In this document: positions 11,207 to 20,355 of the stretch, piece by piece
Layout: each line of letters begins with the position of its first letter
Numbering within the stretch: position 1 is the stretch's first letter
Virus record (IMG/VR): IMGVR_UViG_3300028133_000021
Span: 1 to 31,434 of that record
DNA length: 31,434 nt
Source of the DNA: a virus
Strand: one strand, 5' to 3'
Translations under genes and position numbers: made by a program
Notes under the pieces: generated by a model
What the model was told of the DNA's origin: nothing
Seen by the model: the letters and a program-made list of their open reading frames with translations, nothing else
Databases searched by the model: none

Positions 11207-11235
11207 CTGCAAATAGCAAATAGACAAATAGACAA

Positions 11236-11262
11236 ACTCAGGCTAATCACCTGGGTTTTTTT
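11236..11262 (+). terminator. rho-independent terminator
   Basis: ACTCAGG (11236-11242) pairs with CCTGGGT (11250-11256), 7 bp with one G-T, followed by a T run. It closes the plus-strand block; the minus-strand block converges on it. Just upstream are three to four tandem CAAATAG units (about 11209-11235). Confidence 0.75.
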
Positions 11263-11278
11263 GTTTTATTAAACAATC

Positions 11279-11355
11279 ATAAGTCACTTAGTATCAACGA
11301 GTTAGGAGCGAGCGGGGGGTACTCCGCCGTAAGTCGTTGAGTATCAATGAGTTAT
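11279..11355. repeat. 77-bp composite palindromic repeat, copy R1
   Basis: Two 27-nt imperfect palindromes (11279-11305 and 11329-11355) separated by a 23-nt GC-rich spacer. The left arm is GTAA(C/G)TCGTT(G/C)A, the centre is GTA, and the right arm is its near-complement ending GAGTTAC or GACTTAC. This copy lies between the plus-strand terminator and the tRNA. Confidence 0.85.
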
Positions 11356-11371
11356 GGCATGTTAGAGAAGG

Positions 11372-11444
11372 TAGGGGCGGAGGGACTTGAACCCTCGACC
11401 TGCCGATTATGAGTCGGATGCTCTAACCACTGAGCTACACCCCC
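11372..11444 (-). tRNA. tRNA with CAT anticodon (Met or Ile2)
   Basis: A 73-nt cloverleaf. The acceptor GGGGGTG pairs with CGCCCCT with two G-T pairs, the D arm is GCTC/GAGC, the anticodon loop is CTCATAA, the T arm is GAGGG TTCAAGT CCCTC, and the discriminator is A. CCA is not encoded (CCT follows). The first anticodon-stem pair is a T-C mismatch. The CAT anticodon means elongator Met, or Ile if C34 is converted to lysidine; it lacks the three G-C pairs of initiator tRNA. Confidence 0.9.
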
Positions 11445-11456
11445 TTCTGTTAGATG

Positions 11457-11666
11457 TTAGTAATCCTCTTCTTCTAAACGATCATCCTCACAGCACTCAC
11501 ATAAAAAACTGTTTTGATTTATTAGATCTTGGGTAGTGCCACTCATGAAGCGGACAATGTCGCCGTTGGGTGTGAAGTATCTTACCTTGTCGCTGTTAAC
11601 GTCTTCAACCGATGCCTTGTCATAGCACTCGCTGCATTTTACGTGCATTCCTATTACTTTAGTCAT
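11457..11666 (-). CDS. small zinc-binding-type protein
   Basis: A 69-residue protein with two cysteine pairs, CSEC (11-14) and CECC (56-59), enough for one zinc site. Between them is a beta-rich stretch (VRYFTPNGDIVRFMSG). The tail is acidic. The start is preceded by an A-rich leader (AACAAAATAAAACAAATG) shared almost exactly with the next gene upstream. The stop lies in a TAACATCTAACAG stretch. The function is unknown. Confidence 0.65.
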   Translation of the reverse strand: MTKVIGMHVKCSECYDKASVEDVNSDKVRYFTPNGDIVRFMSGTTQDLINQNSFLCECCEDDRLEEEDY

Positions 11667-11671
11667 TTGTT

Positions 11672-11875
11672 TTATTTTGTTATCTTCATCATATCAAGTG
11701 CCAGATTATCAATGTGCTGATACAACTCGTCACCATCACAGGACGAGAATGGTTCCCATGCGTTATCCTCTAAAAAAAGATTTTGTTTATTGTGATCCCA
11801 ATCAAAGAATTCCTCTGGTATTGGATCACATAGATAATGAGCAGATGATCTTATTATTGCTTGTTCTTTTGTCAT
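11672..11875 (-). CDS. hypothetical small acidic protein
   Basis: A 67-residue acidic protein (EEFFDWDHNKQNLFLEDNAWE) of unknown function in a run of small minus-strand genes. Its leader has the same AACAAAATAAAACAAATG sequence as the gene downstream, in place of a Shine-Dalgarno site. Confidence 0.6.
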   Translation of the reverse strand: MTKEQAIIRSSAHYLCDPIPEEFFDWDHNKQNLFLEDNAWEPFSSCDGDELYQHIDNLALDMMKITK

Positions 11876-11880
11876 TTGTT

Positions 11881-11982
11881 TTATTTTGTTAGGTTAGAAC
11901 ATTCTGGACATACGCCATCCTCGGATGCTCCGCAATTTTCAAAGCTGTCTCCCATATCGTAGTTACAATTTTCGCAATTCAT
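11881..11982 (-). CDS. 33-residue zinc-ribbon-like peptide
   Basis: The frame encodes 33 residues beginning MNCENCNYDMGDSFENCGAS, with C3/C6 and CPEC near 25-28. The two CxxC pairs make a minimal zinc knuckle. It fills the gap between two called genes, starts after CTAACAAAAC and ends in CTAACAAAATAA. It is short, so the call rests on the cysteine pattern and the tight packing. Confidence 0.55.
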   Translation of the reverse strand: MNCENCNYDMGDSFENCGASEDGVCPECSNLTK

Positions 11983-11993
11983 GTTTTGTTAGA

Positions 11994-12338
11994 TTAGAAC
12001 CATGCGGAGTAGTAAACCTTCTCACCCTTACTTAAGAGTTTACCAGCTTCTTTTATGAAGTCAAGTGTTTCTTGCTTTCTGTGTGGACATTTCCTTGAAT
12101 CGCCACCATAGAAGAAGCCGTGAGTCTCTGGTAGTTCGTCATTGGCAACAGCAGCCTCTAGCTGTTCGATGTCATGAGCGTTAAGCTCAAGCTCTGAACA
12201 GTTCCATTCTCCTGCGCCTCCTTTGTCTACCCATAGGTTCTGCATCCATCCATCAAGCGCATTGTGTTTGCGCCAGTCTTGAATCGTGTTGCATTCTCCG
12301 TCCTTATCTTTAGTGTATGCTTGCTGGTCTAATCCCAT
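11994..12338 (-). CDS. conserved phage protein of the MGLDQ type
   Basis: A 114-residue protein beginning MGLDQQAYTKDKDG, with WRKHNALDGWMQNLW at about 22-36 and GFFYGGDS near 74-81. This layout matches a small family of uncharacterised proteins common in marine and other phages. Its role is unknown. Confidence 0.65.
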   Translation of the reverse strand: MGLDQQAYTKDKDGECNTIQDWRKHNALDGWMQNLWVDKGGAGEWNCSELELNAHDIEQLEAAVANDELPETHGFFYGGDSRKCPHRKQETLDFIKEAGKLLSKGEKVYYSAWF

Positions 12339-12351
12339 TTTTTATTTTGTT

Positions 12352-12414
12352 CTATTTGTTTGTGTTTATTATTACTATCGCTAAGAAGATCATCAAAGCT
12401 ATTGATTCGATCAT
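12352..12414 (-). CDS. possible 20-residue membrane peptide
   Basis: The frame encodes MIESIALMIFLAIVIINTNK: nearly all hydrophobic, with an acidic start and a polar end, as in tiny single-span membrane peptides. It lies between the GP88-like gene and the MGLDQ gene. There is no ribosome site to support it, so it is tentative. Confidence 0.3.
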   Translation of the reverse strand: MIESIALMIFLAIVIINTNK

Positions 12415-12423
12415 GGCGGTATT

Positions 12424-13137
12424 TTAGCAGGAAACTGGCTCGATGACAAACCCCGATTTATCTTTTTTCGCAAGCCCCTTTTCAATGAGACCAACGACAA
12501 CGCCTTTCTTGTCCAGGAAACGCAAGTCACTCTCGTCTCCGTCTATTACTTCGTAGCCGTTCCATGTAGTAGGTAAGGAACCACGGAAAACGATTGCGAC
12601 GTTTCCACCTTGTGCTAGTATCATTGCAAGCTCAAGGTCTGAGCTTTCTTCACTGCGTGAAAGCGTTAGAGAATAGTTTTCTGGTAACTCACCCGCAAGG
12701 AACTGTTCCATGCGTTTTCTGCTCTTGGTATAGTCGTAAAAGATTTGATCTTTAAACCGATCAAAGACATTCAAGCCTCCAAAGTGTTTCATGTTTTCCC
12801 ACGGCAAGTCACTCGTTAGATTGAGACGGAAGCAAGATTGCATTTCCTTACGTGCGGCAGACTTAACAGCTTTTGTTATCTCGTCAGCAAGTTGAGTCAT
12901 GAAGTTTTCACGATCCTTAAAGATACGAATTGTTTTCTTTATTCTCGCGTCTTGAACATTCTTCATTGCTCCGCGTCCTGCAGTATTCAAACAAGCCATT
13001 GCACAGCCCTTGCTTGCCCACCTGCATACGTTGTAGCCGCTTACTTTACTTGGCGCAAGGTGAATGCCGAATGTTTTCCATCCTTTCTTTTCTCCCTTGG
13101 CAGTCTTACTATTTCCAGTGTTGAGTATCTTTTGCAT
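12424..13137 (-). CDS. GP88-like phage protein
   Basis: A 237-residue protein resembling the phage 'gene product 88' family known from mycobacteriophages. The opening runs through GIHLAPSKVSGYNVCRWASK and ends with GCAMACLNTAGRG. The conserved cysteines C38, C45 and C49 could hold a metal or Fe-S cluster. The middle carries RLNLTSDLPWEN and FYDYTKSRKR, also typical. The molecular function of the family is not known. It is transcribed from its own promoter with the ATG exactly 6 nt after the -10. Confidence 0.75.
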   Translation of the reverse strand: MQKILNTGNSKTAKGEKKGWKTFGIHLAPSKVSGYNVCRWASKGCAMACLNTAGRGAMKNVQDARIKKTIRIFKDRENFMTQLADEITKAVKSAARKEMQSCFRLNLTSDLPWENMKHFGGLNVFDRFKDQIFYDYTKSRKRMEQFLAGELPENYSLTLSRSEESSDLELAMILAQGGNVAIVFRGSLPTTWNGYEVIDGDESDLRFLDKKGVVVGLIEKGLAKKDKSGFVIEPVSC

Positions 13138-13143
13138 ATCAGT

Positions 13144-13172
13144 ATTTTATCAGTTTGGGTTAATTAAGTCAA
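13144..13172 (-). promoter_or_regulatory. sigma70-like promoter, leaderless
   Basis: Reading the minus strand: TTGACT (13172-13167), a 17-nt spacer, TAAAAT (13149-13144), then 6 nt to the ATG at 13137. Confidence 0.75.
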
Positions 13173-13181
13173 TGGTTATTT

Positions 13182-13496
13182 TTAGAGGTTAAAGCCTAGT
13201 GTGTCAAGAGCTGCGCTATGAGATACTTTGCCCTTACTTGAACCATCCAACTCTTGCCAGTTCTGAATCTTACCCTTAGCATCAGCAGGGAAAATGAATG
13301 TCTCAGAGCCTCCGTGGTCAAGTGCTAGATCAATAGAAGACACAACAACAAATTTTGTTTGGCGTTTTCTTTTAGTCTCTCCGCTTGTATCTATAAATCT
13401 AACGGGTGAAGATAGCTTGTAGAGTTTGGCATCCCCTCTGAAGTCTTCAGATACGTCTTTGATTAGCTCGGCAGTGTTTGGCTTTGTCCTTGTCAT
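13182..13496 (-). CDS. hypothetical conserved phage protein
   Basis: A 104-residue protein with a beta-rich middle (FVVVSSIDLALDHGGSETFIF) and a helical C-terminal end (SHSAALDTLGF). The pattern recalls small proteins found in many cyanophages and pelagic phages, without known function. It starts 6 nt after a TATAAT box. Confidence 0.6.
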   Translation of the reverse strand: MTRTKPNTAELIKDVSEDFRGDAKLYKLSSPVRFIDTSGETKRKRQTKFVVVSSIDLALDHGGSETFIFPADAKGKIQNWQELDGSSKGKVSHSAALDTLGFNL

Positions 13497-13502
13497 GGCT
13501 GC

Positions 13503-13530
13503 ATTATAGCAGAATGGCGAACCGTAGCAA
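13503..13530 (-). promoter_or_regulatory. sigma70-like promoter, leaderless
   Basis: TTGCTA (13530-13525), a 16-nt spacer, TATAAT (13508-13503), then 6 nt to the ATG at 13496. Confidence 0.8.
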
Positions 13531-13580
13531 GTGTTTTTTAATCTTTTTTAATTCTTTTTCTAACAACGTTTTTATCATGC

Positions 13581-13657
13581 GTAACTCGTTCATTATCAAT
13601 GACTTACGAGCGGGTGCCTCCCGCCGCGCCGTAACTCGTTGAGTATCAACGACTTAT
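13581..13657. repeat. 77-bp composite palindromic repeat, copy R2
   Basis: 27-nt palindromes at 13581-13607 and 13631-13657 with a 23-nt GC-rich spacer. It lies between the terminator at 13678 and the promoter at 13503. Confidence 0.85.
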
Positions 13658-13677
13658 GACTGTTAGATGCTGTTAGT

Positions 13678-13707
13678 AAAAAACCCCCGCCCTGTTAGGG
13701 GCGAGGG
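13678..13707 (-). terminator. rho-independent terminator with CTAACA loop
   Basis: On the minus strand, CCCTCGCCC and GGGCGGGGG form a 9-bp stem with one G-T pair, a loop of CTAACA and six T. It ends the DUF932 transcript. The loop is the same hexamer that is over-represented through this block. Confidence 0.85.
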
Positions 13708-13726
13708 CTGCGCTTCGCTGGAGTTG

Positions 13727-14494
13727 TTAGGCTGGCAGCACCAGACCAGTCTCGTTGTCGACTGTTAGGTTTGGCGAGTGACCTGCGACGCGGTCAAACA
13801 CGCTCTGCATATTCATAGTTCTGCTAGGCAACTTGGACATGTCGCTGCCCTTGAGGTGCTCAGTGCAAGCGTTGTAGAGGTTCCACAAGTGGTTGCCCTT
13901 GAACTCCGCGTGGCGAGGTGCTTCGAATTCTTTCGCGGTCTTGTAAACGTCACGGGCAGAGAATGCCTTAGCGTCTACAAGATCAATTAGGAGATCCGAT
14001 GCTTGCTCACGGTTGATCTCGGTCCGCTGGTAAGCGCCGATGCGTTCAGCCATGTCAGTCCAGTGAGACGTAACGCGAGACATGGCGGTAGACAGAACAC
14101 GCGGCAGATCTGTTAGAATGCGCGAGGTGTGACGACGGGCAAGCTTCACATCAGAAGAGAAGCAAAGATTATCACAGACAAGCATCTGGTTACCGATACA
14201 GATAGCAGAGGCAAATGCCTTGTCATGACTGTTACGGAGACCAAGGACAAGATTTCGATCATCGCCCTCGATGCCCTTACCAGTGATAGCAAAGCCGCCG
14301 AAGTAACGAAGGTCACCGCGTGACAAACCATGCTCTTCTTCAGTGATAGAAAAACCAGCACGGTCAAGAGCTTTGCGGGTATAGTCTACCAGCGTCGCGT
14401 GTGGGATTGGAGTGTGGGTATCAGTTCCTGCTGGCGTGTGGAGCTTAGCAAGATCAGTGGCTTCGATTGGGCTTTTGGACATTATTAGTGACAT
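13727..14494 (-). CDS. DUF932 family phage/plasmid protein
   Basis: A 255-residue protein matching the DUF932 family of phage, plasmid and mobile-element proteins. The hallmark is LVLGLRNSHDKAFASAICIG followed by MLVCDNLCF at about 106-113. Helical segments follow (RVLSTAMSRVTSHWTDMAER). The molecular function is unknown. Unlike its neighbours, it has a 47-nt leader behind a TATAAT promoter. An in-frame ATG four codons downstream (MSKSP) is an alternative start. It looks markedly more GC-rich than the plus-strand genes. Confidence 0.8.
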   Translation of the reverse strand: MSLIMSKSPIEATDLAKLHTPAGTDTHTPIPHATLVDYTRKALDRAGFSITEEEHGLSRGDLRYFGGFAITGKGIEGDDRNLVLGLRNSHDKAFASAICIGNQMLVCDNLCFSSDVKLARRHTSRILTDLPRVLSTAMSRVTSHWTDMAERIGAYQRTEINREQASDLLIDLVDAKAFSARDVYKTAKEFEAPRHAEFKGNHLWNLYNACTEHLKGSDMSKLPSRTMNMQSVFDRVAGHSPNLTVDNETGLVLPA

Positions 14495-14547
14495 AGTATT
14501 ATTTTTTTCTAGTTTGGATTAAGTGCGCCTTTCGTGACTGCAAAGAC

Positions 14548-14576
14548 ATTATAGCCTAAAAGTTTCTATTGGACAA
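14548..14576 (-). promoter_or_regulatory. sigma70-like promoter of the DUF932 gene
   Basis: TTGTCC (14576-14571), a 17-nt spacer and TATAAT (14553-14548). The expected start near 14541 gives a leader of about 47 nt, an exception to the leaderless pattern here. Confidence 0.7.
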
Positions 14577-14610
14577 GCACTTTCGTCATAAAAAACGATT
14601 TATTTTCACA

Positions 14611-14630
14611 TGTTCCACGGAATGTTCCAC
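14611..14630. repeat. paired TGTTCCAC repeat, copy I1
   Basis: TGTTCCAC at 14611-14618 and 14623-14630 (12-bp period), upstream of the DUF932 promoter. Each octamer equals a half-site of the bacterial parS sequence, but here the two are in direct orientation. Confidence 0.8.
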
Positions 14631-14662
14631 GCAGCTGGGATTTAGAAAACGCCAAATAGACT
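14623..14662. repeat. 40-bp intergenic direct repeat, copy A
   Basis: About 40 bp from the second TGTTCCAC through CAGCTGGGATTTAGAAAACG to CCAAATAGACT. It recurs at 16183-16222 with one difference. Both copies lie between a TGTTCCAC pair and a palindromic repeat, so a whole intergenic unit was duplicated. Confidence 0.85.
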
Positions 14663-14687
14663 GTTAGACGTTTCTGTTATTACAAGC

Positions 14688-14801
14688 CATTAAGTGTCAA
14701 TGAGTTACGTTTCTGTTAGGGTACGTAAGTCACTCAGTATCAACGACTTACGGCGGGGCGGGGGGCCACAGCTCCTAACTCGTTCAGTATCAATGAGTTA
14801 T
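14688..14801. repeat. palindromic repeat cluster, copy R3
   Basis: A partial unit (14688-14708) is followed by the 77-bp composite 14725-14801 (palindromes 14725-14751 and 14775-14801, spacer 23 nt). The last palindrome contains the stop codon of the 53-residue gene on the minus strand. Confidence 0.8.
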
Positions 14802-14959
14802 GTAGTGGTTGAGCGATCATCTATACGATCCTGTCGACCTTGAGAAAACCAAGCGTCCCATTGAACCTTCTGCTCTTCTGTTAGAACACAAAGACAAGGC
14901 ACGGTGATTCCATGCCAACCGCAATCATAAGATATATCTATAACTTCGTCGTCACTCAT
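14798..14959 (-). CDS. hypothetical protein, paralog of the gene at 16332
   Basis: A 53-residue protein (MSDDEVIDISYDCGWHGITV...). The core YDCGWHG-x-T-x-PCL-x-x-LTEEQK-x-x-WD-x-WF aligns with YDCGFYR-x-T-x-PCL-x-x-LTDDQK-x-x-WD-x-WF of the gene at 16332. The conservation of two Cys and three Trp or aromatic positions shows both are real. The function is unknown. The stop codon TAA is provided by a palindromic repeat. Confidence 0.65.
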   Translation of the reverse strand: MSDDEVIDISYDCGWHGITVPCLCVLTEEQKVQWDAWFSQGRQDRIDDRSTTT

Positions 14960-14964
14960 AATTG

Positions 14965-15087
14965 TTAATCGTATTTATTATCTTCACAGATAGCCTTAGC
15001 CATTGCCAGGAAAGACATTACCACTAAAGTTGTTAGAGTGGTGAATAATGTTAGAAAAGCCAACGCGTGAATTATTGTATGAATCAT
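14965..15087 (-). CDS. small membrane protein, 40 aa
   Basis: The frame MIHTIIHALAFLTLFTTLTT continues LVVMSFLAMAK, one strongly hydrophobic span of about 28 residues, then a charged tail (EDNKYD). It starts 1 nt after the stop of the next upstream gene, within CTAACATG. The tight stop-start packing supports it. A holin-like role is possible but unproven. Confidence 0.5.
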   Translation of the reverse strand: MIHTIIHALAFLTLFTTLTTLVVMSFLAMAKAICEDNKYD

Positions 15088-15088
15088 G

Positions 15089-15214
15089 TTAGTAGTATTT
15101 ATCTTCTTTCATTTCTTCCAGTAAGTCTTTGATTAAACAAAGCACAAACATAACTACGCTAACCACCCAAAAACAAATGAGTGTTATGCCTCCGATTATT
15201 AGTATTTCTTTCAT
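15089..15214 (-). CDS. small membrane protein, 41 aa
   Basis: A hydrophobic span (ILIIGGITLICFWVVSVVMF) is followed by a charged amphipathic tail (KDLLEEMKEDKYY). It overlaps the upstream gene by an ATGA and is followed after 1 nt by another 40-residue membrane protein, so the two may act as a pair. The function is unknown. Confidence 0.5.
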   Translation of the reverse strand: MKEILIIGGITLICFWVVSVVMFVLCLIKDLLEEMKEDKYY

Positions 15215-15369
15215 GATGGTGATAGTATTTCTAATTCTGGTTCGTTGTCAAAGATATCAACGAGAAAGGGGAATGGTAAGTCTTCTAAACTAAACATTAT
15301 TTCTTGTTGTCTATCAAAGAGCTTGTCCCTGTCTTCTTCTATTATTGTTATTTGTATTCTGGTTTGCAT
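15211..15369 (-). CDS. hypothetical small acidic protein, 52 aa
   Basis: The frame MQTRIQITIIEEDRDKLFDR... starts 4 nt after the stop of the 94-residue gene, with a GGAGAA Shine-Dalgarno upstream, and ends in an ATGA overlap with the membrane-protein gene. It is acidic with a beta-strand start. The function is unknown. Confidence 0.6.
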   Translation of the reverse strand: MQTRIQITIIEEDRDKLFDRQQEIMFSLEDLPFPFLVDIFDNEPELEILSPS

Positions 15370-15373
15370 ATTA

Positions 15374-15658
15374 TTATTCTCCTATAAACATTCCTCCGCC
15401 GAAAAAGCCTTCGTGGCTTACCTCTCTCGCCTTAGCCTTGATATTCTTAGCTGTGCCTCTGACAAGTGAGTCGTGGTGATTGATGTATGGTTCTGTTAGT
15501 GTTACCACCTTTCCGTATTCCTCTAGAGATGTAGTGATGAACATACCTAGCTTGATCTCCTTGCCATTGGTTATTTCAGCGGCTTTGAGTAGATCATTGT
15601 ATTCGTCTTCTGTTAGCACGTTTTTTACATGCATTCTTTGGCTTTGTGCTTTTGTCAT
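15374..15658 (-). CDS. hypothetical protein, 94 aa
   Basis: A basic N-terminal helix (MTKAQSQRMHVKNVLTEDEY) is followed by a beta-rich middle (IKLGMFITTSLEEYGKVVTL) and a glycine-rich end (GFFGGGMFIGE). I prefer the ATG at 15658 to 15703 because GGGAGAAAAG lies just before it. The function is unknown; it heads a four- to five-gene minus-strand run. Confidence 0.6.
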   Translation of the reverse strand: MTKAQSQRMHVKNVLTEDEYNDLLKAAEITNGKEIKLGMFITTSLEEYGKVVTLTEPYINHHDSLVRGTAKNIKAKAREVSHEGFFGGGMFIGE

Positions 15659-15704
15659 ATCTTTTCTCCCTGCGTTGTTTAAGCTGTTTGGATTACAATT
15701 CATA

Positions 15705-15884
15705 TTATGGGCAGATGGCTGTTACTTGTTCTGTTGAAAAACCTACTTCCTCACCATCCTCGGTAGTTCCCCAGAATGGGCGATGTGGGTTGTTAGGATA
15801 TACTTCATCGACTATCACGGGTTGACCGCAAACGATAACCATAGTCCCAACCTTAATGGAGTTAGTGAGTTCTGTGTCTTTCAT
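15705..15884 (-). CDS. small beta-rich protein, paralog of the gene at 15937
   Basis: A 59-residue protein (MKDTELTNSIKVGTMVIVCG...). The stretch IKVGTMVIV aligns with IEVGSMVIV in the next gene upstream, as do VDEVYP / VEEVWY and the acidic GTTEDGEEV / GIDQDGHEEE. Small SH3-like barrels have this look (V-x-G-x-x-V-x-V). The longer frame to 15956 is rejected because it covers the promoter; the ATG at 15884 is 6 nt after TATAAT. Confidence 0.65.
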   Translation of the reverse strand: MKDTELTNSIKVGTMVIVCGQPVIVDEVYPNNPHRPFWGTTEDGEEVGFSTEQVTAICP

Positions 15885-15890
15885 GGTTAC

Positions 15891-15918
15891 ATTATAGCAT
15901 AATGAACTAGCGAAGCAA
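15891..15918 (-). promoter_or_regulatory. sigma70-like promoter, leaderless
   Basis: TTGCTT (15918-15913), a 16-nt spacer, TATAAT (15896-15891), then 6 nt to the ATG at 15884. Confidence 0.8.
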
Positions 15919-15936
15919 TACCTTTTTAATCTTTTT

Positions 15937-16113
15937 TTAGTTGCTGATTGCGTCAATGCGGCTCATGTGGATTTCTTCTTCGTGTCCGTCTTGGTCAATC
16001 CCGATGATGGTATTTTCTGAATACCAGACTTCTTCGACGTAGTAAGAAGTCAATCCGACGATCACCATCGAGCCGACTTCTATCTTTTGTTGTGGTAGTG
16101 TTTCCGTTTTCAT
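15937..16113 (-). CDS. small beta-rich protein, paralog of the gene at 15705
   Basis: A 58-residue protein (MKTETLPQQKIEVGSMVIVG...). It is a tandem paralog of the 59-residue product downstream, and its promoter is also similar, sharing AAAAAGGTATTGC at the -35 end. The start at 16113 is set by the promoter 6 nt upstream; the longer frame to 16245 runs through promoter and repeats. The function is unknown. Confidence 0.65.
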   Translation of the reverse strand: MKTETLPQQKIEVGSMVIVGLTSYYVEEVWYSENTIIGIDQDGHEEEIHMSRIDAISN

Positions 16114-16119
16114 GGCTGC

Positions 16120-16147
16120 ATTATACCAAATTGGAGCAAATAGGCAA
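16120..16147 (-). promoter_or_regulatory. sigma70-like promoter, leaderless
   Basis: TTGCCT (16147-16142), a 16-nt spacer, TATAAT (16125-16120), then 6 nt to the ATG at 16113. Confidence 0.8.
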
Positions 16148-16169
16148 TACCTTTTTAATCTTTTTTTAA

Positions 16170-16190
16170 TGTTCCACAGAAATGTTCCAC
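16170..16190. repeat. paired TGTTCCAC repeat, copy I2
   Basis: TGTTCCAC at 16170-16177 and 16183-16190 (13-bp period), about 23 bp upstream of the -35 of the 58-residue gene. Confidence 0.85.
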
Positions 16191-16222
16191 ACAGCTGGGA
16201 TTTAGAAAACGCCAAATAGACT
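16183..16222. repeat. 40-bp intergenic direct repeat, copy B
   Basis: The second copy of the element at 14623-14662, nearly identical, again placed between a TGTTCCAC pair and a composite palindrome. Confidence 0.85.
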
Positions 16223-16236
16223 ATACTGTTAGATGT

Positions 16237-16313
16237 ATAAGTCATTGAGTATCAACGAGTTACGAGCTGGCTGGAGGTGCCCCGCCGTAAGTCGTTCAAT
16301 ATCAACGAGTTAC
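16237..16313. repeat. 77-bp composite palindromic repeat, copy R4
   Basis: Palindromes 16237-16263 and 16287-16313 with a 23-nt GC-rich spacer. It lies between the stop of the 66-residue gene and the next promoter. Confidence 0.85.
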
Positions 16314-16331
16314 GTAGGGTGTTAGAAGCTG

Positions 16332-16532
16332 TTAGTCGTAGCCGTAGATAGACCCCATAACATGGTAGTCGGCAATCGCGGAGGCGGCTTCGTCACGCTC
16401 GTCAGTCTGACCCTCGGCAAACCAGCGATCCCAGATCTCCTTCTGGTCATCTGTTAGGTGAGCGAGGCAGGGCGGTGTCGTGCGATAGAAACCGCAGTCA
16501 TAGGCATGGTCTTGAATCTCTTGATCAGTCAT
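16332..16532 (-). CDS. hypothetical protein, paralog of the gene at 14798
   Basis: A 66-residue acidic protein. Residues 11-42 (YDCGFYRTTPPC then LTDDQKEIWDRWFAEG) match the 53-residue product at 14798. The C-terminal extension (ASAIADYHVMGSIYGYD) is absent from that paralog. It has no promoter of its own: it follows the 51-residue gene across two hairpins and is preceded by CTAACACT-ATG. The function is unknown. Confidence 0.65.
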   Translation of the reverse strand: MTDQEIQDHAYDCGFYRTTPPCLAHLTDDQKEIWDRWFAEGQTDERDEAASAIADYHVMGSIYGYD

Positions 16533-16556
16533 AGTGTTAGGTAGTGGTTAGAGGTT

Positions 16557-16575
16557 GCTCCCCCCGTGGGGGAGC
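16557..16575. promoter_or_regulatory. GC-rich intergenic hairpin
   Basis: GCTCCCCC (16557-16564) and GGGGGAGC (16568-16575) make an 8-bp stem with a 3-nt loop. A second hairpin (GGGTGC/GCACCC) lies at about 16580-16610. There is no T run on either strand. A similar GTTGCTCCC...GGGAGC hairpin occurs at 17943-17959. These may stabilise or process the transcript between two cotranscribed genes. Confidence 0.55.
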
Positions 16576-16618
16576 GGTTAGGGTGCTAGTAGGCGGGTTG
16601 AGCCGCACCCTGCGGAAA

Positions 16619-16774
16619 TTAGTGAGCGTCATCGAGGAACGGCTCGGAGGTGTCAGCCTCGTTACAAGCTGCGATCCAATCCTGGTAATCCTGAACATCG
16701 AAGTCAGAGGGGAACTGAGCATCGAAGTTGGCTTGATCGGCAGCGGTAGCGGTGGTAGTGTTGTTCGTTTCCAT
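16619..16774 (-). CDS. hypothetical small acidic protein, 51 aa
   Basis: An acidic protein (METNNTTTATAADQANFDAQ...) with a Thr/Ala-rich N-terminus and DVQDYQDWIAACNEAD at about 27-42. The start at 16774 is 6 nt after TATAAT; the longer frame to 16861 covers the promoter. The function is unknown. Confidence 0.6.
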   Translation of the reverse strand: METNNTTTATAADQANFDAQFPSDFDVQDYQDWIAACNEADTSEPFLDDAH

Positions 16775-16780
16775 GACAGA

Positions 16781-16808
16781 ATTATACCAGAATCTCGCTA
16801 ATAGGCAA
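16781..16808 (-). promoter_or_regulatory. sigma70-like promoter, leaderless
   Basis: TTGCCT (16808-16803), a 16-nt spacer, TATAAT (16786-16781), then 6 nt to the ATG at 16774. Confidence 0.8.
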
Positions 16809-16840
16809 CATCTTTTTGCATCTTTATGCACTTTTTTTTG

Positions 16841-16861
16841 TGTTCCACGGAAATGTTCCAC
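16841..16861. repeat. paired TGTTCCAC repeat, copy I3
   Basis: TGTTCCAC at 16841-16848 and 16854-16861 (13-bp period), about 32 bp upstream of the -35 at 16808. Confidence 0.85.
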
Positions 16862-16887
16862 ACGCGCCTGTTAGATTTATTGCTTAC

Positions 16888-16964
16888 ATAACTCGTTCAG
16901 TATCAACGACTTACGGCGCGGCTGGGGGTGGGGGCTCGTAACTCGTTGAGTATCAATGACTTAC
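16888..16964. repeat. 77-bp composite palindromic repeat, copy R5
   Basis: Palindromes 16888-16914 and 16938-16964 with a 23-nt GC-rich spacer. It lies just downstream (minus-strand sense) of the tmRNA-like RNA. Confidence 0.85.
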
Positions 16965-16984
16965 AGAGCTTTTTTCTGTTAGAG

Positions 16985-17054
16985 TGGTGGAGCGTAGGGG
17001 ATTTGAACCCCTGTCTCTAACAGCAAACTGTTAGATCGAATACCAGTTCGCCCC
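16985..17054 (-). ncRNA. tmRNA-like RNA lacking a tag reading frame
   Basis: A 70-nt RNA on the minus strand. The 5' part GGGGCGAACTGGTATTCGAT matches the start of bacterial tmRNA (GGGG...CTGG-TTCGA), including the stemless D-arm analogue. The 3' part has a T arm (AGGGG TTCAAAT CCCCT), the acceptor strand ACGCTCC, discriminator A and an encoded CCA. The acceptor pairs G1-C72, G2-C71, G3-U70, G4-C69, C5-G68, G6-C67; G3-U70 with A73 is the alanine identity signal shared by tmRNA and tRNA-Ala. Where tmRNA has P2, the tag frame and pseudoknots, this RNA has only CTAACAG-TTTG-CTGTTAG, a 7-bp hairpin. It cannot encode a tag. A normal tRNA is unlikely, since there is no D stem and no 7-nt anticodon loop. 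Confidence 0.7.
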
Positions 17055-17069
17055 TGTTAGATGTTAGGT

Positions 17070-17108
17070 AGCTCACCCCACGATGCCTAGGAGATCGTGA
17101 GGCAAGCT
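17070..17108 (-). other. 15-bp hairpin upstream of the tmRNA-like RNA
   Basis: On the minus strand AGCTTGCCTCACGAT pairs with ATCGTGGGGTGAGCT over 15 continuous pairs (three G-T) around a 9-nt loop. It lies between the stop at 17134 and the 5' end of the RNA at 17054. It could be an RNase processing signal that frees the RNA, or part of a larger structured RNA. Confidence 0.75.
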
Positions 17109-17133
17109 ATTCCCAACACTACTTAGAAAACTG

Positions 17134-17406
17134 TTAGGCGACTACCTCAATTCCTGCTAGATGAAGTGTGCGATACTTCTCAAAGCCGTGATCGTCAATG
17201 TCGGTGGCTAAGACCTTGAGGCAGCGTTTACCATTCTTCTTAGCGTTCCAAACATCCTCGACAGCGTGGATTTTAAAGGTGCGCTCCTTGTCTCTGCGAA
17301 CGCTAGACTTCCCTTGGTTGATATATCGAACAGTTCGATCCTTGAGAAGGTTTGCGATTTCGAGGACGGAGGCGGTTGTGCTTGTGTTGGTATTTGCGAT
17401 TTGCAT
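17134..17406 (-). CDS. hypothetical basic protein, 90 aa
   Basis: A basic protein with a Ser/Thr-rich N-terminus and then a likely small beta barrel: TVRYINQGKSSVRRDKERTF, then DVWNAKKNGKRCLKVLATDIDDHGFEKYRTLHLAGI split across about 40-88. The start at 17406 is fixed by a TATAAT 6 nt upstream; the longer frame to 17490 runs through the promoter. Its transcript probably continues into the hairpin and tmRNA-like RNA. The function is unknown. Confidence 0.65.
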   Translation of the reverse strand: MQIANTNTSTTASVLEIANLLKDRTVRYINQGKSSVRRDKERTFKIHAVEDVWNAKKNGKRCLKVLATDIDDHGFEKYRTLHLAGIEVVA

Positions 17407-17412
17407 AGTTAT

Positions 17413-17441
17413 ATTATAGTTGGTTTTTGCGGTTGAGTCAA
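17413..17441 (-). promoter_or_regulatory. sigma70-like promoter, leaderless
   Basis: TTGACT (17441-17436), a 17-nt spacer, TATAAT (17418-17413), then 6 nt to the ATG at 17406. It may also transcribe the tmRNA-like RNA. Confidence 0.8.
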
Positions 17442-17503
17442 TCCCCTTTTTGAGGATTGTGAGATTGTTTAGTGCTTTTAAAAAGTCCATTTGTTTTTAG
17501 TGG

Positions 17504-17764
17504 TTAAGACAAGCCTAGAGCATTGCCGTATTTGTCGAAGGTATTGCGGACAACCTTAGTTATTCCAGCAGAACCCCAGCGCATATTGGAGCGGAACTCT
17601 TTGACAGTTTCGCCATCAGAGTTTTTCACAAGGATTCTCCAAGTGCCAGTTGAGTTTCCTTCATCCCAAGTGAAACCTCGCTTTGCTTCAAAAGCGTTTA
17701 GGGTATCAAGATCAACGTGAAGGGTTTCGAACCAAGGAGTTTTTTTTGTTTTAGTATTGTTCAT
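17504..17764 (-). CDS. hypothetical protein, 86 aa
   Basis: A soluble protein (MNNTKTKKTPWFETLHVDLD...) with a Trp/Gly-rich beta region (GFTWDEGNSTGTWRILVKN) and a helical C-terminus. Unlike most neighbours it has a long leader, about 240 nt from the promoter at 18010. The function is unknown. Confidence 0.6.
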   Translation of the reverse strand: MNNTKTKKTPWFETLHVDLDTLNAFEAKRGFTWDEGNSTGTWRILVKNSDGETVKEFRSNMRWGSAGITKVVRNTFDKYGNALGLS

Positions 17765-18003
17765 AGTAGTGTTTTCTATTTGTTAATGGTTTAAGTTTTG
17801 GAAAGCTGATTGCTCATAAAGGAGTTGCACCTTCGTCTTCCTCTCCTACCGCTTGTGCCGTAGTATCCTCGGATTTCTCGGAGTATGTGAGAGGCTATCT
17901 TACTTGCTAGAAGAATGAGCCGTTTGTAGTGTTTTGATTGTTGCTCCCCCTTAGGGAGCTTTTGGGAAGTCTTAAGTTGGTTGAACCCTTCCCTCTCTTG
18001 CTT
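17765..18003 (-). promoter_or_regulatory. long structured 5' leader of the 86-residue gene
   Basis: About 239 nt between the predicted start near 18003 and the ATG at 17764. In order it has GGGAAG/CTTCCC, a GCTCCC/GGGAGC hairpin (17959-17943), a long-range CCTCTC/GAGAGG pairing enclosing CTAC/GTAG, and an 8-codon frame (MSNQLSKT) shortly before the gene. It could be a regulatory leader or a separate small RNA. It matches no riboswitch class that I recognise. Confidence 0.4.
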
Positions 18004-18009
18004 GACTAT

Positions 18010-18037
18010 ATTATAGCAGAAAACTCGATTTTTACAA
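18010..18037 (-). promoter_or_regulatory. sigma70-like promoter with long leader
   Basis: TTGTAA (18037-18032), a 16-nt spacer and TATAAT (18015-18010). No start codon lies within 6-9 nt, unlike the leaderless set. Confidence 0.7.
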
Positions 18038-18073
18038 GCATATTCGACCTAAAAAAACGTTTTTTTTCGCTTT

Positions 18074-18100
18074 TTAACTCATTGGTTATCAACTAGTTAA
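18074..18100. repeat. single degenerate 27-nt palindrome, copy R6
   Basis: TTAACTCATTGG and its partner CTAGTTAA flank a TTATCAA centre. It is diverged from the family consensus and includes the stop codon of the endolysin gene. Confidence 0.65.
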
Positions 18101-18662
18101 AATGTTCCACAGAATTGTTCCACAGAGCTAGTTCGAATTTCCTTCGCCTTTCTAAACCTTTTCGCACTTTGCCGCCAGCCATGCGGTACATTGGCAGCAC
18201 CTCAGAAACGCTCTGATAATTTCCATCGTTTAAACGCCCCTCCTGTGAGACAAGCTGATATAGTGCGCCCCTTCCGCAGTTGTATGTGAAACTTGTTAGA
18301 GCAGCAAGTTGATTATCTGTTAGAGGGACTTTGACTATAGAGAGAACCACATCTTTGTATTCGTGCAATTCCTTTTCTAACAAGTCGCTTGCTTCCCTCT
18401 CGGAGATTACGCCCTTAGATACTGCAATGCCTGTGTGACCATAGCCAATAGTTCGCTTGCCACCGCAACACGTATACGCCTCTGCGCGATAGCTCTCGAA
18501 ATGTTTTACGCCTTTTAGCATATCATACCAAGCCTTGTTTATGTTAGGCGCAAGCACCGCGCTGTTAGGTTTTACCAGTACAGGTCTGTTAGGCTTCACC
18601 AGCACAGGTGTGTTAGATAGGGCTGATGTAGTAAGGGCGATTAGAAGTAGTAGCGTTTTCAT
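18093..18662 (-). CDS. secreted endolysin, GH24 lysozyme type
   Basis: A 189-residue muramidase of the T4/P22 lysozyme type, which cleaves the glycan strands of peptidoglycan. It carries the triad spacing E-x8-C-x5-T: E56, C65 (in place of Asp, as in some phage lysozymes) and T71, within HFESYRAEAYTCC then GKRTIGYGHTG. The later motif LTDNQLAALTSFTYNCGRGA is typical. The N-terminus is a signal peptide (KTLLLLIALTTSALS), implying Sec export or a signal-anchor form, followed by PVLVKPN direct repeats. The start is 6 nt after TATAAT. Unusually, the last dozen or so codons are made of the TGTTCCAC pair and a palindrome. Confidence 0.9.
   Translation of the reverse strand: MKTLLLLIALTTSALSNTPVLVKPNRPVLVKPNSAVLAPNINKAWYDMLKGVKHFESYRAEAYTCCGGKRTIGYGHTGIAVSKGVISEREASDLLEKELHEYKDVVLSIVKVPLTDNQLAALTSFTYNCGRGALYQLVSQEGRLNDGNYQSVSEVLPMYRMAGGKVRKGLERRRKFELALWNNSVEHFN
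18103..18123. repeat. paired TGTTCCAC repeat, copy I4, inside the endolysin gene
   Basis: TGTTCCAC at 18103-18110 and 18116-18123 (13-bp period). On the minus strand it encodes the endolysin tail WNNSVEH. It also lies 66 bp upstream of the -35 at 18037. Confidence 0.85.
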
Positions 18663-18668
18663 GCCCTA

Positions 18669-18697
18669 ATTATACTCTAACAGTTCAGGTTTGTGAA
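18669..18697 (-). promoter_or_regulatory. sigma70-like promoter of the endolysin gene, leaderless
   Basis: TTCACA (18697-18692), a 17-nt spacer, TATAAT (18674-18669), then 6 nt to the ATG at 18662. Confidence 0.75.
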
Positions 18698-18724
18698 GCT
18701 TTTTCTTTGCTTATTTTACCCCAT

Positions 18725-18844
18725 GTAAGTCCTTCAGTATCAACGAGTTACGATCTTTCTAACAGTCATAAGTCACTCATTATCAACGAGTTACGGCCCC
18801 TCGGGGGGTGAGGCGCCCTAAGTCGTTGAGTATCAATGGGTTAC
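18725..18844. repeat. palindromic repeat cluster, copy R7 (three units)
   Basis: Units at 18725-18751, 18768-18794 and 18818-18844. The last two form the standard 77-bp composite (spacer 23 nt); the first spacer is 16 nt and contains CTAACAG. It lies between the methyltransferase terminator and the endolysin promoter. Confidence 0.85.
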
Positions 18845-18866
18845 AGAGGTTTTTCTGTTAGATGGC

Positions 18867-18900
18867 AAAACCCCGCCCCCCACACTACTAGGGGACGAGG
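18867..18900 (-). terminator. rho-independent terminator
   Basis: On the minus strand CCTCGTCCCC pairs with GGGGCGGGG(GG) over 10 bp with two G-T pairs and a loop near TAGTAGTGT, followed by TTTT. It ends the unit that includes the methyltransferase. Confidence 0.75.
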
Positions 18901-18932
18901 CACAATTACCACTATGAAAAAGCTGTTAGATG

Positions 18933-19457
18933 TTAGATGAGCGTGGTGACGTATAGACCTTGATGCTCACCCTTGAGGTTGTCTGTTAGAGTGGCATAGC
19001 CATTGTCGTCTGCTGCTGCTCTAACGTATTCATGCAGTGCGTCTATGTCGAGGCTCATCTTCCTTGGTTGGCTTGGGTAGTTCCACACTATACGTGTGCC
19101 TGACTGAGCAAAGCGCATGATGCTGGCTAGTGTATCCTCTAACTGATCGCCTGTCTCTTGGACGTTCAACACGTTAGACACAAGGATCACTGAGTATGTA
19201 TCATTAGAGGTAGCATTAGGCACGGATAGATCATAGCCATCAATGCTATACTCTTGTGCGCTTAATCTGTTAGACCAGTAGTTATCCTTACCACATCCGA
19301 AGTCTAACACATCATCCTCATGCTTAGTGATAACGTGATCTAGTGCATAGTGATATACTCTAGCCTTAGGCGTGAAGTTCTTACGGTATGTCTTGGTGCG
19401 TGAATCATTGTGTGCTTGCCACATAGCACCGCCCCAGCTTTTAGGTTCTTCTGTCAT
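18933..19457 (-). CDS. class I SAM-dependent methyltransferase
   Basis: A 174-residue protein with the Rossmann methyltransferase motifs: motif I VLDFGCGKDNYW (about 50-61), an acidic residue after strand 2 (IDGYDLS, 72-78), and a motif IV region YSVILVSNVLNVQ (about 88-100). The N-terminal stretch W-x-H-N-x-S-R-T-K-T-Y is typical of small phage methyltransferases of this type. The substrate (DNA, RNA, protein or small molecule) is not evident; it lacks an N6-adenine DPPY motif. It is preceded by CTAACAGC-ATG and is third or fourth in its unit. Confidence 0.8.
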   Translation of the reverse strand: MTEEPKSWGGAMWQAHNDSRTKTYRKNFTPKARVYHYALDHVITKHEDDVLDFGCGKDNYWSNRLSAQEYSIDGYDLSVPNATSNDTYSVILVSNVLNVQETGDQLEDTLASIMRFAQSGTRIVWNYPSQPRKMSLDIDALHEYVRAAADDNGYATLTDNLKGEHQGLYVTTLI

Positions 19458-19468
19458 GCTGTTAGGTG

Positions 19469-19693
19469 TTAGTAGTTGACGTATTCCATGACTGTATCAT
19501 AACGGAACTGACCATCGTCATTCATTTGGTCTAGCTCTTCATCGGTAGCCATGCGACCTTCGACCTTGGCTGTCATGATGTAAGCATCGCAGTAGTCGGG
19601 GTAGTCGCGATGGTCTACGCCGTCAATTTGGATGTCTTCGATTGGGGCGGTATATGCTCCTCTGTCGGAGTGATTGAATGTGAATTGATTCAT
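19469..19693 (-). CDS. hypothetical small acidic protein
   Basis: A 74-residue acidic, Tyr/Asp-rich protein (DGVDHRDYPDYCDAYIMTAK) of unknown function, 11 nt upstream of the methyltransferase gene. A TATAAT lies 4 nt before its ATG, but with no good -35. It may be an internal promoter or chance. Confidence 0.65.
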   Translation of the reverse strand: MNQFTFNHSDRGAYTAPIEDIQIDGVDHRDYPDYCDAYIMTAKVEGRMATDEELDQMNDDGQFRYDTVMEYVNY

Positions 19694-19715
19694 AGTAATT
19701 ATATTCTGTTAGTGG

Positions 19716-20000
19716 TTAGTAGTGATTAGTGCGGGTTGGCTCGTTAGCGAGTAGGATACAAGCCTTATTGATGTCCCCATGTGTGAAGCGTTCTCCGTTT
19801 ATGGTTATGTAGTATCCACGGCATGAGACGGCAGAGAAGTTGCCAGATTTAAAGTAGACAGTGGCAGACCATCCAGCCTTATCATCATGGATAGATCTCT
19901 CAACGTGTGAGAAGGTAGGATACCTGCGGAAGTCAAATGCTGTCATGCTATTGTATGCGAGGTGGAAGGCGTTGAGCGGTGGTGTAGTGTATGCTTTCAT
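19716..20000 (-). CDS. hypothetical protein
   Basis: A 94-residue protein with a beta-rich middle (WSATVYFKSGNFSAVSCRGYY then ITINGERFTHGDIN) and a hydrophobic-helical end (ACILLANEP). The function is unknown. It lies 35 nt after the 69-residue gene and is likely cotranscribed. Confidence 0.65.
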   Translation of the reverse strand: MKAYTTPPLNAFHLAYNSMTAFDFRRYPTFSHVERSIHDDKAGWSATVYFKSGNFSAVSCRGYYITINGERFTHGDINKACILLANEPTRTNHY

Positions 20001-20035
20001 AGTGATTTTCTTTCTGGTTATATTTTACAGTAATT

Positions 20036-20245
20036 CTAGTTGCCTTGCAAGATGTTTCGACACTTATTTTCAGCATCTCTTTTAGCCTTCATGACCATCT
20101 CACGCTCACGCTTGATCTGGAACTGACGCTCACGCTCACGCTGACGCTCAAGATTCTTGTTAGCGTTGGCGACCATCTCAGTGAGGATGTGCTGAACGTT
20201 AGGATTAGGAACTGGTGAAAGTGATGTAGTGTTTCTCTCTTGCAT
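20036..20245 (-). CDS. hypothetical protein with long charged helix
   Basis: A 69-residue protein whose C-terminal 45 residues form a highly charged single helix (NLERQRERERQFQIKRERE), built from near-tandem (R/K)ERE repeats. The start at 20245 is 6 nt after TATAAT; the longer frame to 20302 covers the promoter. It probably oligomerises or binds nucleic acid; the function is unknown. Confidence 0.65.
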   Translation of the reverse strand: MQERNTTSLSPVPNPNVQHILTEMVANANKNLERQRERERQFQIKREREMVMKAKRDAENKCRNILQGN

Positions 20246-20251
20246 GGTTGT

Positions 20252-20279
20252 ATTATACCACCAGAGCCGAAAAATGGAA
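20252..20279 (-). promoter_or_regulatory. promoter with consensus -10, weak -35, leaderless
   Basis: TATAAT (20257-20252) lies 6 nt before the ATG at 20245. The -35 (TTCCAT, 20279-20274) is poor, so an activator or extended contact may be needed. The TGTTCCAC pair and a palindrome lie just upstream. Confidence 0.65.
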
Positions 20280-20309
20280 GCAGAAACTTCATATATTATC
20301 ATCTTTTTT

Positions 20310-20332
20310 CTCGTTCAGTATCAACGACTTAC
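20310..20332. repeat. partial 27-nt palindrome, copy R8
   Basis: It has CTCGTTCA, the GTA centre and TCAACGACTTAC but lacks the first four nt of the left arm. It is a single copy at the start of the minus block. Confidence 0.75.
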
Positions 20333-20334
20333 AA

Positions 20335-20355
20335 TGTTCCACAGGAATGTTCCAC
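20335..20355. repeat. paired TGTTCCAC repeat, copy I5
   Basis: TGTTCCAC at 20335-20342 and 20348-20355 (13-bp period). It lies immediately beside palindrome R8. Confidence 0.85.

Follow-up and report, generated by a model that had tools for sequence, protein, structure and literature searches.

The virus record IMGVR_UViG_3300028133_000021 of IMG/VR (the window, 31,434 bases) carries, between positions 11279 and 20332, a repeated intergenic element of 77 bp in which two imperfect palindromes flank a GC-rich spacer. The genes of the window include rIIA, rIIB, an endolysin, a tRNA-Met, and a large terminase related to T4-type terminases. The interpretation favored here, to which we would give about an even chance, is that the elements are paired bend sites for the IHF/HU protein of the host and mark off early transcription units from one another. 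The spacing of the two palindromes is a property of the genome and changes in concert across its copies, which is an unusual evolutionary pattern. An uncultivated phage lineage thus gains a shared and recognizable signature in its regulatory DNA, and a vague repeat becomes a testable claim, namely that the virus may separate its early transcription units via a host nucleoid protein at paired palindromic bend sites.

Structure, distribution, and spacing of the element

The repeat had been described in an initial annotation of the window, which was correct but understated. Six copies, starting at positions 11279, 13581, 14725, 16237, 16888, and 18768, were verified, each comprising 27 + 23 + 27 = 77 bp. 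Their spacers have the described starts (GAGC or GGC) and ends (GCC or GCTC) and are 78–87% GC, compared with 39% in the record overall. The extra units reported outside the six copies are also present, at 14683-14707 (degenerate), 18075-18099, 18726-18750, and 20307-20331. The unit itself is 25 bp, TAASTCGTTGA-nnn-TCAACGASTTA, plus one flanking base per side, and the palindromes are imperfect, with frequent mismatches at positions 4/22, 7/19, and 8/18. In shuffled sequence, one match at ≤5 mismatches was found in 157 kb, and the reversed pattern had no match among 13 positive records; because both controls are near zero, chance is excluded as the source of the repeat.

Beyond the window, the doublet of palindromes was detected in at least 176 viral loci with at least 702 doublets, and a pattern scan of viral contigs gave at least 119 stretches. 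Two or more units were present in 66 of 80 loci fetched via the neighboring GP88 gene (window 12424-13137), with the repeat itself not used in the choice, but in only 11 of 80 loci fetched via the terminase gene, whose neighbors are structural genes. In large records (85–170 kb), the doublets are confined to one stretch of about 2–13 kb per record. The elements belong to the early region of a tailed-phage lineage. A core gene set is common to all eight large element-bearing records, and the core genes recognizable in PHROGs include PhoH, clamp loader, DNA polymerase, DnaB, and UvsX. Three core proteins that were tested, the terminase among them, had no PHROG match, and one of these three, searched in cultured phages, had no match there either; hence this marine and poorly known lineage is uncultivated or nearly so. 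In cultured phages and plasmids, the repeat gave weak single-unit matches only and no doublet.

With regard to the spacing, the doublet period is 50 bp in most genomes and 41, 42, 46, 49–53, or 58 bp in others, and the spacings encountered (34, 41–43, 46–47, 49–53, and 58–60) do not follow whole helical turns. Among 436 doublets from 75 non-redundant loci, 91% show the modal spacing of their own locus, compared with 60% after shuffling between loci. Two loci whose gene content is close to that of the window (lysozyme 91%), L059 with 50 bp and L258 with 41 bp, share their gene order and have near-identical aligned promoter flanks. When five of their orthologous doublets were aligned, every copy of L258 had a spacing of 41 bp and a different spacer. 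It is because the modal spacing is shared within a locus, and because L258 differs from L059 at each orthologous copy, that spacing is regarded as a genome-wide character that changes in concert.

The annotation had argued from a fixed 50-bp period that one protein dimer or tetramer binds both palindromes on one face of the DNA, and had proposed conservation of the spacing in relatives as a test. Spacing is conserved within genomes but not between them. The one-face argument fails, since the spacings of relatives differ and an orthologous set shifts from 50 to 41 bp; helical phasing is ruled out by spacings that are not whole turns. The other part of the proposal, a protein element in double-stranded DNA, is supported by the lack of covariation described below and by a fit to the consensus of a bending protein that is far better than chance. 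In 166 deduplicated 50-bp doublets, pairing at the variable palindrome positions 4/22, 7/19, and 8/18 was no higher than expected. Because these positions do not covary, the palindromes resemble sites for a protein in double-stranded DNA rather than stems. The GC spacer, on the other hand, shows paired changes in the same set (z 3–5.7 at several positions), and in the 42-bp class its positions 31-37 and 32-36 are paired in 94–100%. A small hairpin or palindrome in the spacer is moderately supported, as energy folding in the 50-bp class gives only a mild excess over shuffles. It was also observed in the 50-bp doublets that, at five positions, the first and second palindromes are less complementary to each other than in column shuffles (z −2.6 to −4), as would be seen if a long foldback were avoided.

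Match to the IHF consensus and placement among genes

The consensus of IHF sites is WATCARNNNNTTR. The same string appears in PMC10201428. The comparison with it covered 407 units, deduplicated and taken from loci that had been selected without regard to the repeat; paired units were picked by their outer TAASTC/GASTTA only, and the inner 13 bases were then examined. T9 and A17 never vary, position 8 is always C or T, and position 18 is always A or G, and these inner bases are the CAR/YTG core of the IHF consensus, in both halves of the palindrome. The full consensus is perfect in 66% of the units, and the core CARNNNNTTR is present in 99%. When the consensus letters were randomly permuted 20,000 times, 0 permutations did as well as the full consensus and 4 as well as the core. 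The central triplet favors NTA or TAN, and one strand completes WATCAR in 63% of units versus 50% in column shuffles (z 8.5), an excess that may partly reflect the shared ancestry of the copies. The two AR/YT steps of a unit are 9 bp apart, which is the distance between the kinks in IHF/HU-DNA structures.

In the region of the window from 11292 to 20331, there are 18 perfect matches to the consensus versus 0.87 expected. Fifteen of them lie inside units, all on the + strand, at 11292, 11342, 13594, 13644, 14738, 14788, 16250, 16300, 16901, 16951, 18087, 18738, 18781, 18831, and 20319; thus, 15 of the 16 window units have a perfect IHF consensus, the exception being the one at 14683. Among oriented doublets in which both units have a clear direction, 56 have the same orientation and 15 the opposite one. 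The consensus sequences of Fis, Lrp, CRP, LexA, DnaA, ArgR, FNR, NtrC, and MarA gave no match.

The placement of 185 elements was counted relative to genes validated by homologs. Same-strand genes surround 164 of them, while 16 are in convergent and 5 in divergent contexts. An element is present in 158 of 213 same-strand gaps longer than 120 bp versus 1 of 188 gaps of ≤60 bp. In the sense of the genes, the order is the upstream gene, often its terminator, the element, an A/T-rich stretch, a sigma70-type promoter, and the next gene. By a strict rule, seven sense promoters are located downstream of elements and none upstream, and the downstream flanks are A/T rich. The elements lie near gene ends, at a median of 83 nt past the stop.

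All copies in the window are intergenic, as had been annotated, but the statement that they usually lie directly ahead of a transcription unit holds only in part. Five of the six lie between same-strand genes. The exception is the element at 11279..11355 (units 11280-11304 and 11330-11354, GC spacer 11306-11328), which has the end and terminator of a + strand gene (11234-11258) on one side and the 3′ end of the − strand tRNA-Met (11370-11444) on the other. On the − strand, the element at 13581..13657 lies between the terminator (13709-13682) of gene 13727-14494, which comes before it, and a promoter at 13530-13503, which comes after it. The degenerate unit at 14683-14707 is 43 bp away from the element at 14725..14801, and the element at 16237..16313 has a promoter downstream at 16147-16120(−). 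Immediately 3′ of a tmRNA-like stretch (about 16985-17062(−)) comes the element at 16888..16964, which has a promoter downstream at 16808-16781(−), and the element at 18768..18844, with the extra single unit at 18726-18750 43 bp away, is upstream of a promoter at 18697-18669(−). Of the remaining single units, 18075..18099 adjoins TGTTCCAC direct repeats (18103 and 18116) and is upstream of the promoter at 18037-18010(−), and 20307..20331, degenerate on its 5′ side, adjoins a further pair (20335 and 20348) and has the promoter of gene 20036-20245(−) downstream of it.

Mobility between relatives, which the annotation had raised, is not borne out. At orthologous positions, the doublet is kept in 1211 cases, only one unit is detectable in 21, and the element is absent in 1. 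Since so many doublets are kept and one is absent, the copies do not hop on the time scale of the relatives compared.

Proposed function and alternative explanations

In the favored interpretation, each 77-bp element would be composed of two near-palindromic sites at which a DNA-bending protein of the host, from the IHF/HU (DNABII) family, would bind; the GC-rich segment, as a small hairpin or palindrome, would hold these sites apart. The element would mark where one early transcription unit gives way to the next, with the upstream gene, and in many cases its terminator, on one side and the sigma70 promoter of the downstream unit on the other. The border DNA would be folded by two sharp bends, set apart by a distance specific to the genome, and this folding may both insulate the neighboring units from read-through and supercoiling and present the next early promoter in a fixed geometry. 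From these sequence patterns, we infer the binding of IHF/HU, the host origin of the binder, and the insulating or architectural effect. More tentatively, the paired palindromic DNABII sites around a GC hairpin could constitute a border code for early genes, whose bend distance would be a genome-wide parameter; its value would be reset simultaneously in every copy, perhaps as a mark of self-identity or as a match to the bending protein of the host.

IHF sites upstream of phage early promoters are a known use of this protein, and canonical sites, such as those of lambda att and the Mu early promoter, resemble the phage element in that WATCARNNNNTTR is found in most units; unlike them, the element has the CAR-N4-TTR core in both halves, in a palindrome whose AR/YT steps are 9 bp apart, and is present in many paired copies. 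The likeness to BIME/REP elements in layout but not in sequence, which the annotation had remarked upon, is supported. A passage of PMC2817692 that cites Boccard and Prentki 1993 describes RIBs as IHF-binding repeats at the 3′ ends of E. coli transcription units. The RIB/BIME-1 elements of E. coli appear to be the closest in how the element may work, as both are dispersed, intergenic composite repeats at the ends of transcription units with IHF-type sites and inverted repeats. The phage-borne element is not a member of this group because it has no REP palindromes and carries the IHF-type sequence twice, inside each of the palindromes flanking the GC hairpin, whereas BIME-1 has one IHF site between two REP (PU) palindromes.

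Several observations weigh against the favored interpretation. IHF binding alone explains neither the GC hairpin nor the single spacing of each genome, and about a tenth of the validated placements, the convergent ones (16/185), have no following promoter. The permutation figures ignore the relatedness of the units. PF00216 (IHF/HU) had no match over the cut-off in 14 element-bearing records, so a phage-encoded IHF/HU was rejected as the binder and the protein of the host would be implied. Both halves, together with S4/S22 and GA at positions 20-21, are conserved beyond the one-sided IHF consensus, and therefore another protein could be the true binder. This constitutes the main rival, a possible but clearly less probable explanation, in which the palindromes are operators at which a phage-encoded or other host protein would control or insulate the early units, and the resemblance to IHF sites is convergent. 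A conserved symmetric sequence of 25–31 bp exceeds the need of IHF, single units occur near promoters, and a genome-specific spacing with concerted change between near relatives would be expected of a fast-evolving phage factor. However, no DNA-binding candidate was conspicuous among the proteins conserved in the element region (most commonly GP88, DUF932, and small unknowns), and chance would be unlikely to give so exact a fit to the IHF consensus, in which even the degenerate R positions are matched. A comparison of element-bearing with element-free GP88 contigs yielded no binder, the element-free contigs being another lineage that shares hardly any other gene.

The remaining explanations, namely terminators, REPINs, PeSLs, and integrons, each fail at least one tested feature. 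It is unlikely that the elements are bidirectional transcription terminators or stabilizers of RNA 3′ ends whose RNA folds into hairpins, although they are close to gene ends, the TAA of the first palindrome (P1) is the stop codon in 10 cases, and the GC spacer shows hairpin-like covariation. Only 15 of 169 elements have a T-run after them in the register of a terminator, while a separate upstream terminator is present in 70 of 169, and the terminators predicted in the window lie outside the elements. The annotation had considered that simple terminators would undo its proposal; only about 9% of the elements resemble intrinsic ones. No Rfam family matched the element at six loci. An RNA stem or long foldback was likewise rejected, since the palindrome stems lack covariation and P1:P2 pairing is avoided (z −3 to −4), even though single RNAs can fold in this way. 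Still less probable, and disfavored, are REP/BIME or REPIN-like mobile repeats colonizing phage intergenic regions. Like REP dimers and REPINs (GTAG- and CGTC-tagged; PMC3733652), the element is intergenic and has two palindromes with a structured spacer (20–100 bp and sometimes foldable in the former). The spacers of L059 also resemble one another more (similarity 0.70) than they resemble those of the orthologous elements in the window (0.62), and a related palindrome occurs in 104 copies in a Microscillaceae metagenome-assembled genome (MAG). On the other hand, the Y1 transposase (RAYT, PF01797) was found in 0 of 14 records versus 5 of 14 control genomes, there is no GTAG tag, positions are conserved between relatives, and the units of a doublet mostly share their IHF-site direction. 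Stem covariation is lacking, unlike in REPs, which, according to a passage of PMC2817692, keep complementary changes. Least probable of all would be recombination borders, in which sequence common to the units promotes module shuffling as in PeSL cassettes. PeSLs (promoter early stem-loops) lie between genes in the early region of T4-type phages and have been linked to shuffling (PMC4503421). Like them, the element is repeated between genes, near sigma70-type early promoters, in an early region that comprises many small units and undergoes shuffling; gene order differs between the window and L059/L258. Here, however, the promoter is downstream and outside the element, the palindromes behave as double-stranded DNA sites with a near-dyad protein-site signature, the spacing is fixed and genome-specific, and the elements are short and diverged. 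Finally, an integron attC array was rejected: a tyrosine integrase (PF00589) was found in 0 of 14 records versus 14 of 14 controls, and TGTTAG/CTAACA words as core sites are not paired around the elements and also occur inside genes.

Neighboring motifs and related sequences

Some other features were observed in the element-bearing region. The tmRNA-like gene at 16985-17062(−), directly followed by an element and with an Rfam match reaching 17150, is cut down to little beyond the tRNA-like domain, with GGGGCGAACTGGTATTCGAT at the 5′ side, a CTAACAG-TTTG-CTGTTAG hairpin, and then GACAGGGGTTCAAATCCCCTACGCTCCACC. A second such gene is present at L079:5423-5486(−). The Rfam tmRNA scores are 23 bits (E 1e-7, below gathering) in the window and 59 bits over 64 nt in L079. 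Between 11270 and 20500, the word TGTTAG occurs 48 times on the + strand and 7 times on the − strand, 15 of the occurrences being inside genes, and it is found almost nowhere else in the window. It reads CUAACA in the RNA of the genes, where it often overlaps the stop codon, and it is also enriched in the relatives L059, L258, L304, L055, and L064.

Pairs of TGTTCCAC direct repeats, 12 or 13 bp apart and on one strand only, are located upstream of early promoters at 14611-14630, 16170-16190, 16841-16861, 18103-18123, and 20335-20355. They are specific to the close relatives of the window, and the pair looks like a putative operator, half of the parS-like TGTTCCACGTGGAACA.

Outside the close relatives, about 104 copies of the single palindrome TAACTCATTGATTATCAATGAGTTA are dispersed over the genome G025 of L137 (the Microscillaceae MAG), and both strands of this palindrome carry the IHF consensus. 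A palindromic IHF consensus, found in both this repeat and the phage element, would be a lead on the site preference of symmetric IHF/HU proteins. In L166 and L178, contigs of Akkermansia-type MAGs, a perfect single unit lies directly beside TGTTCCACATGGAACA-type palindromes, and the same two motifs are neighbors in the phage window. In addition, a manA riboswitch-like RNA (RF01745, 81 bits) is present in an element-bearing phage contig at L254:3456-3665.

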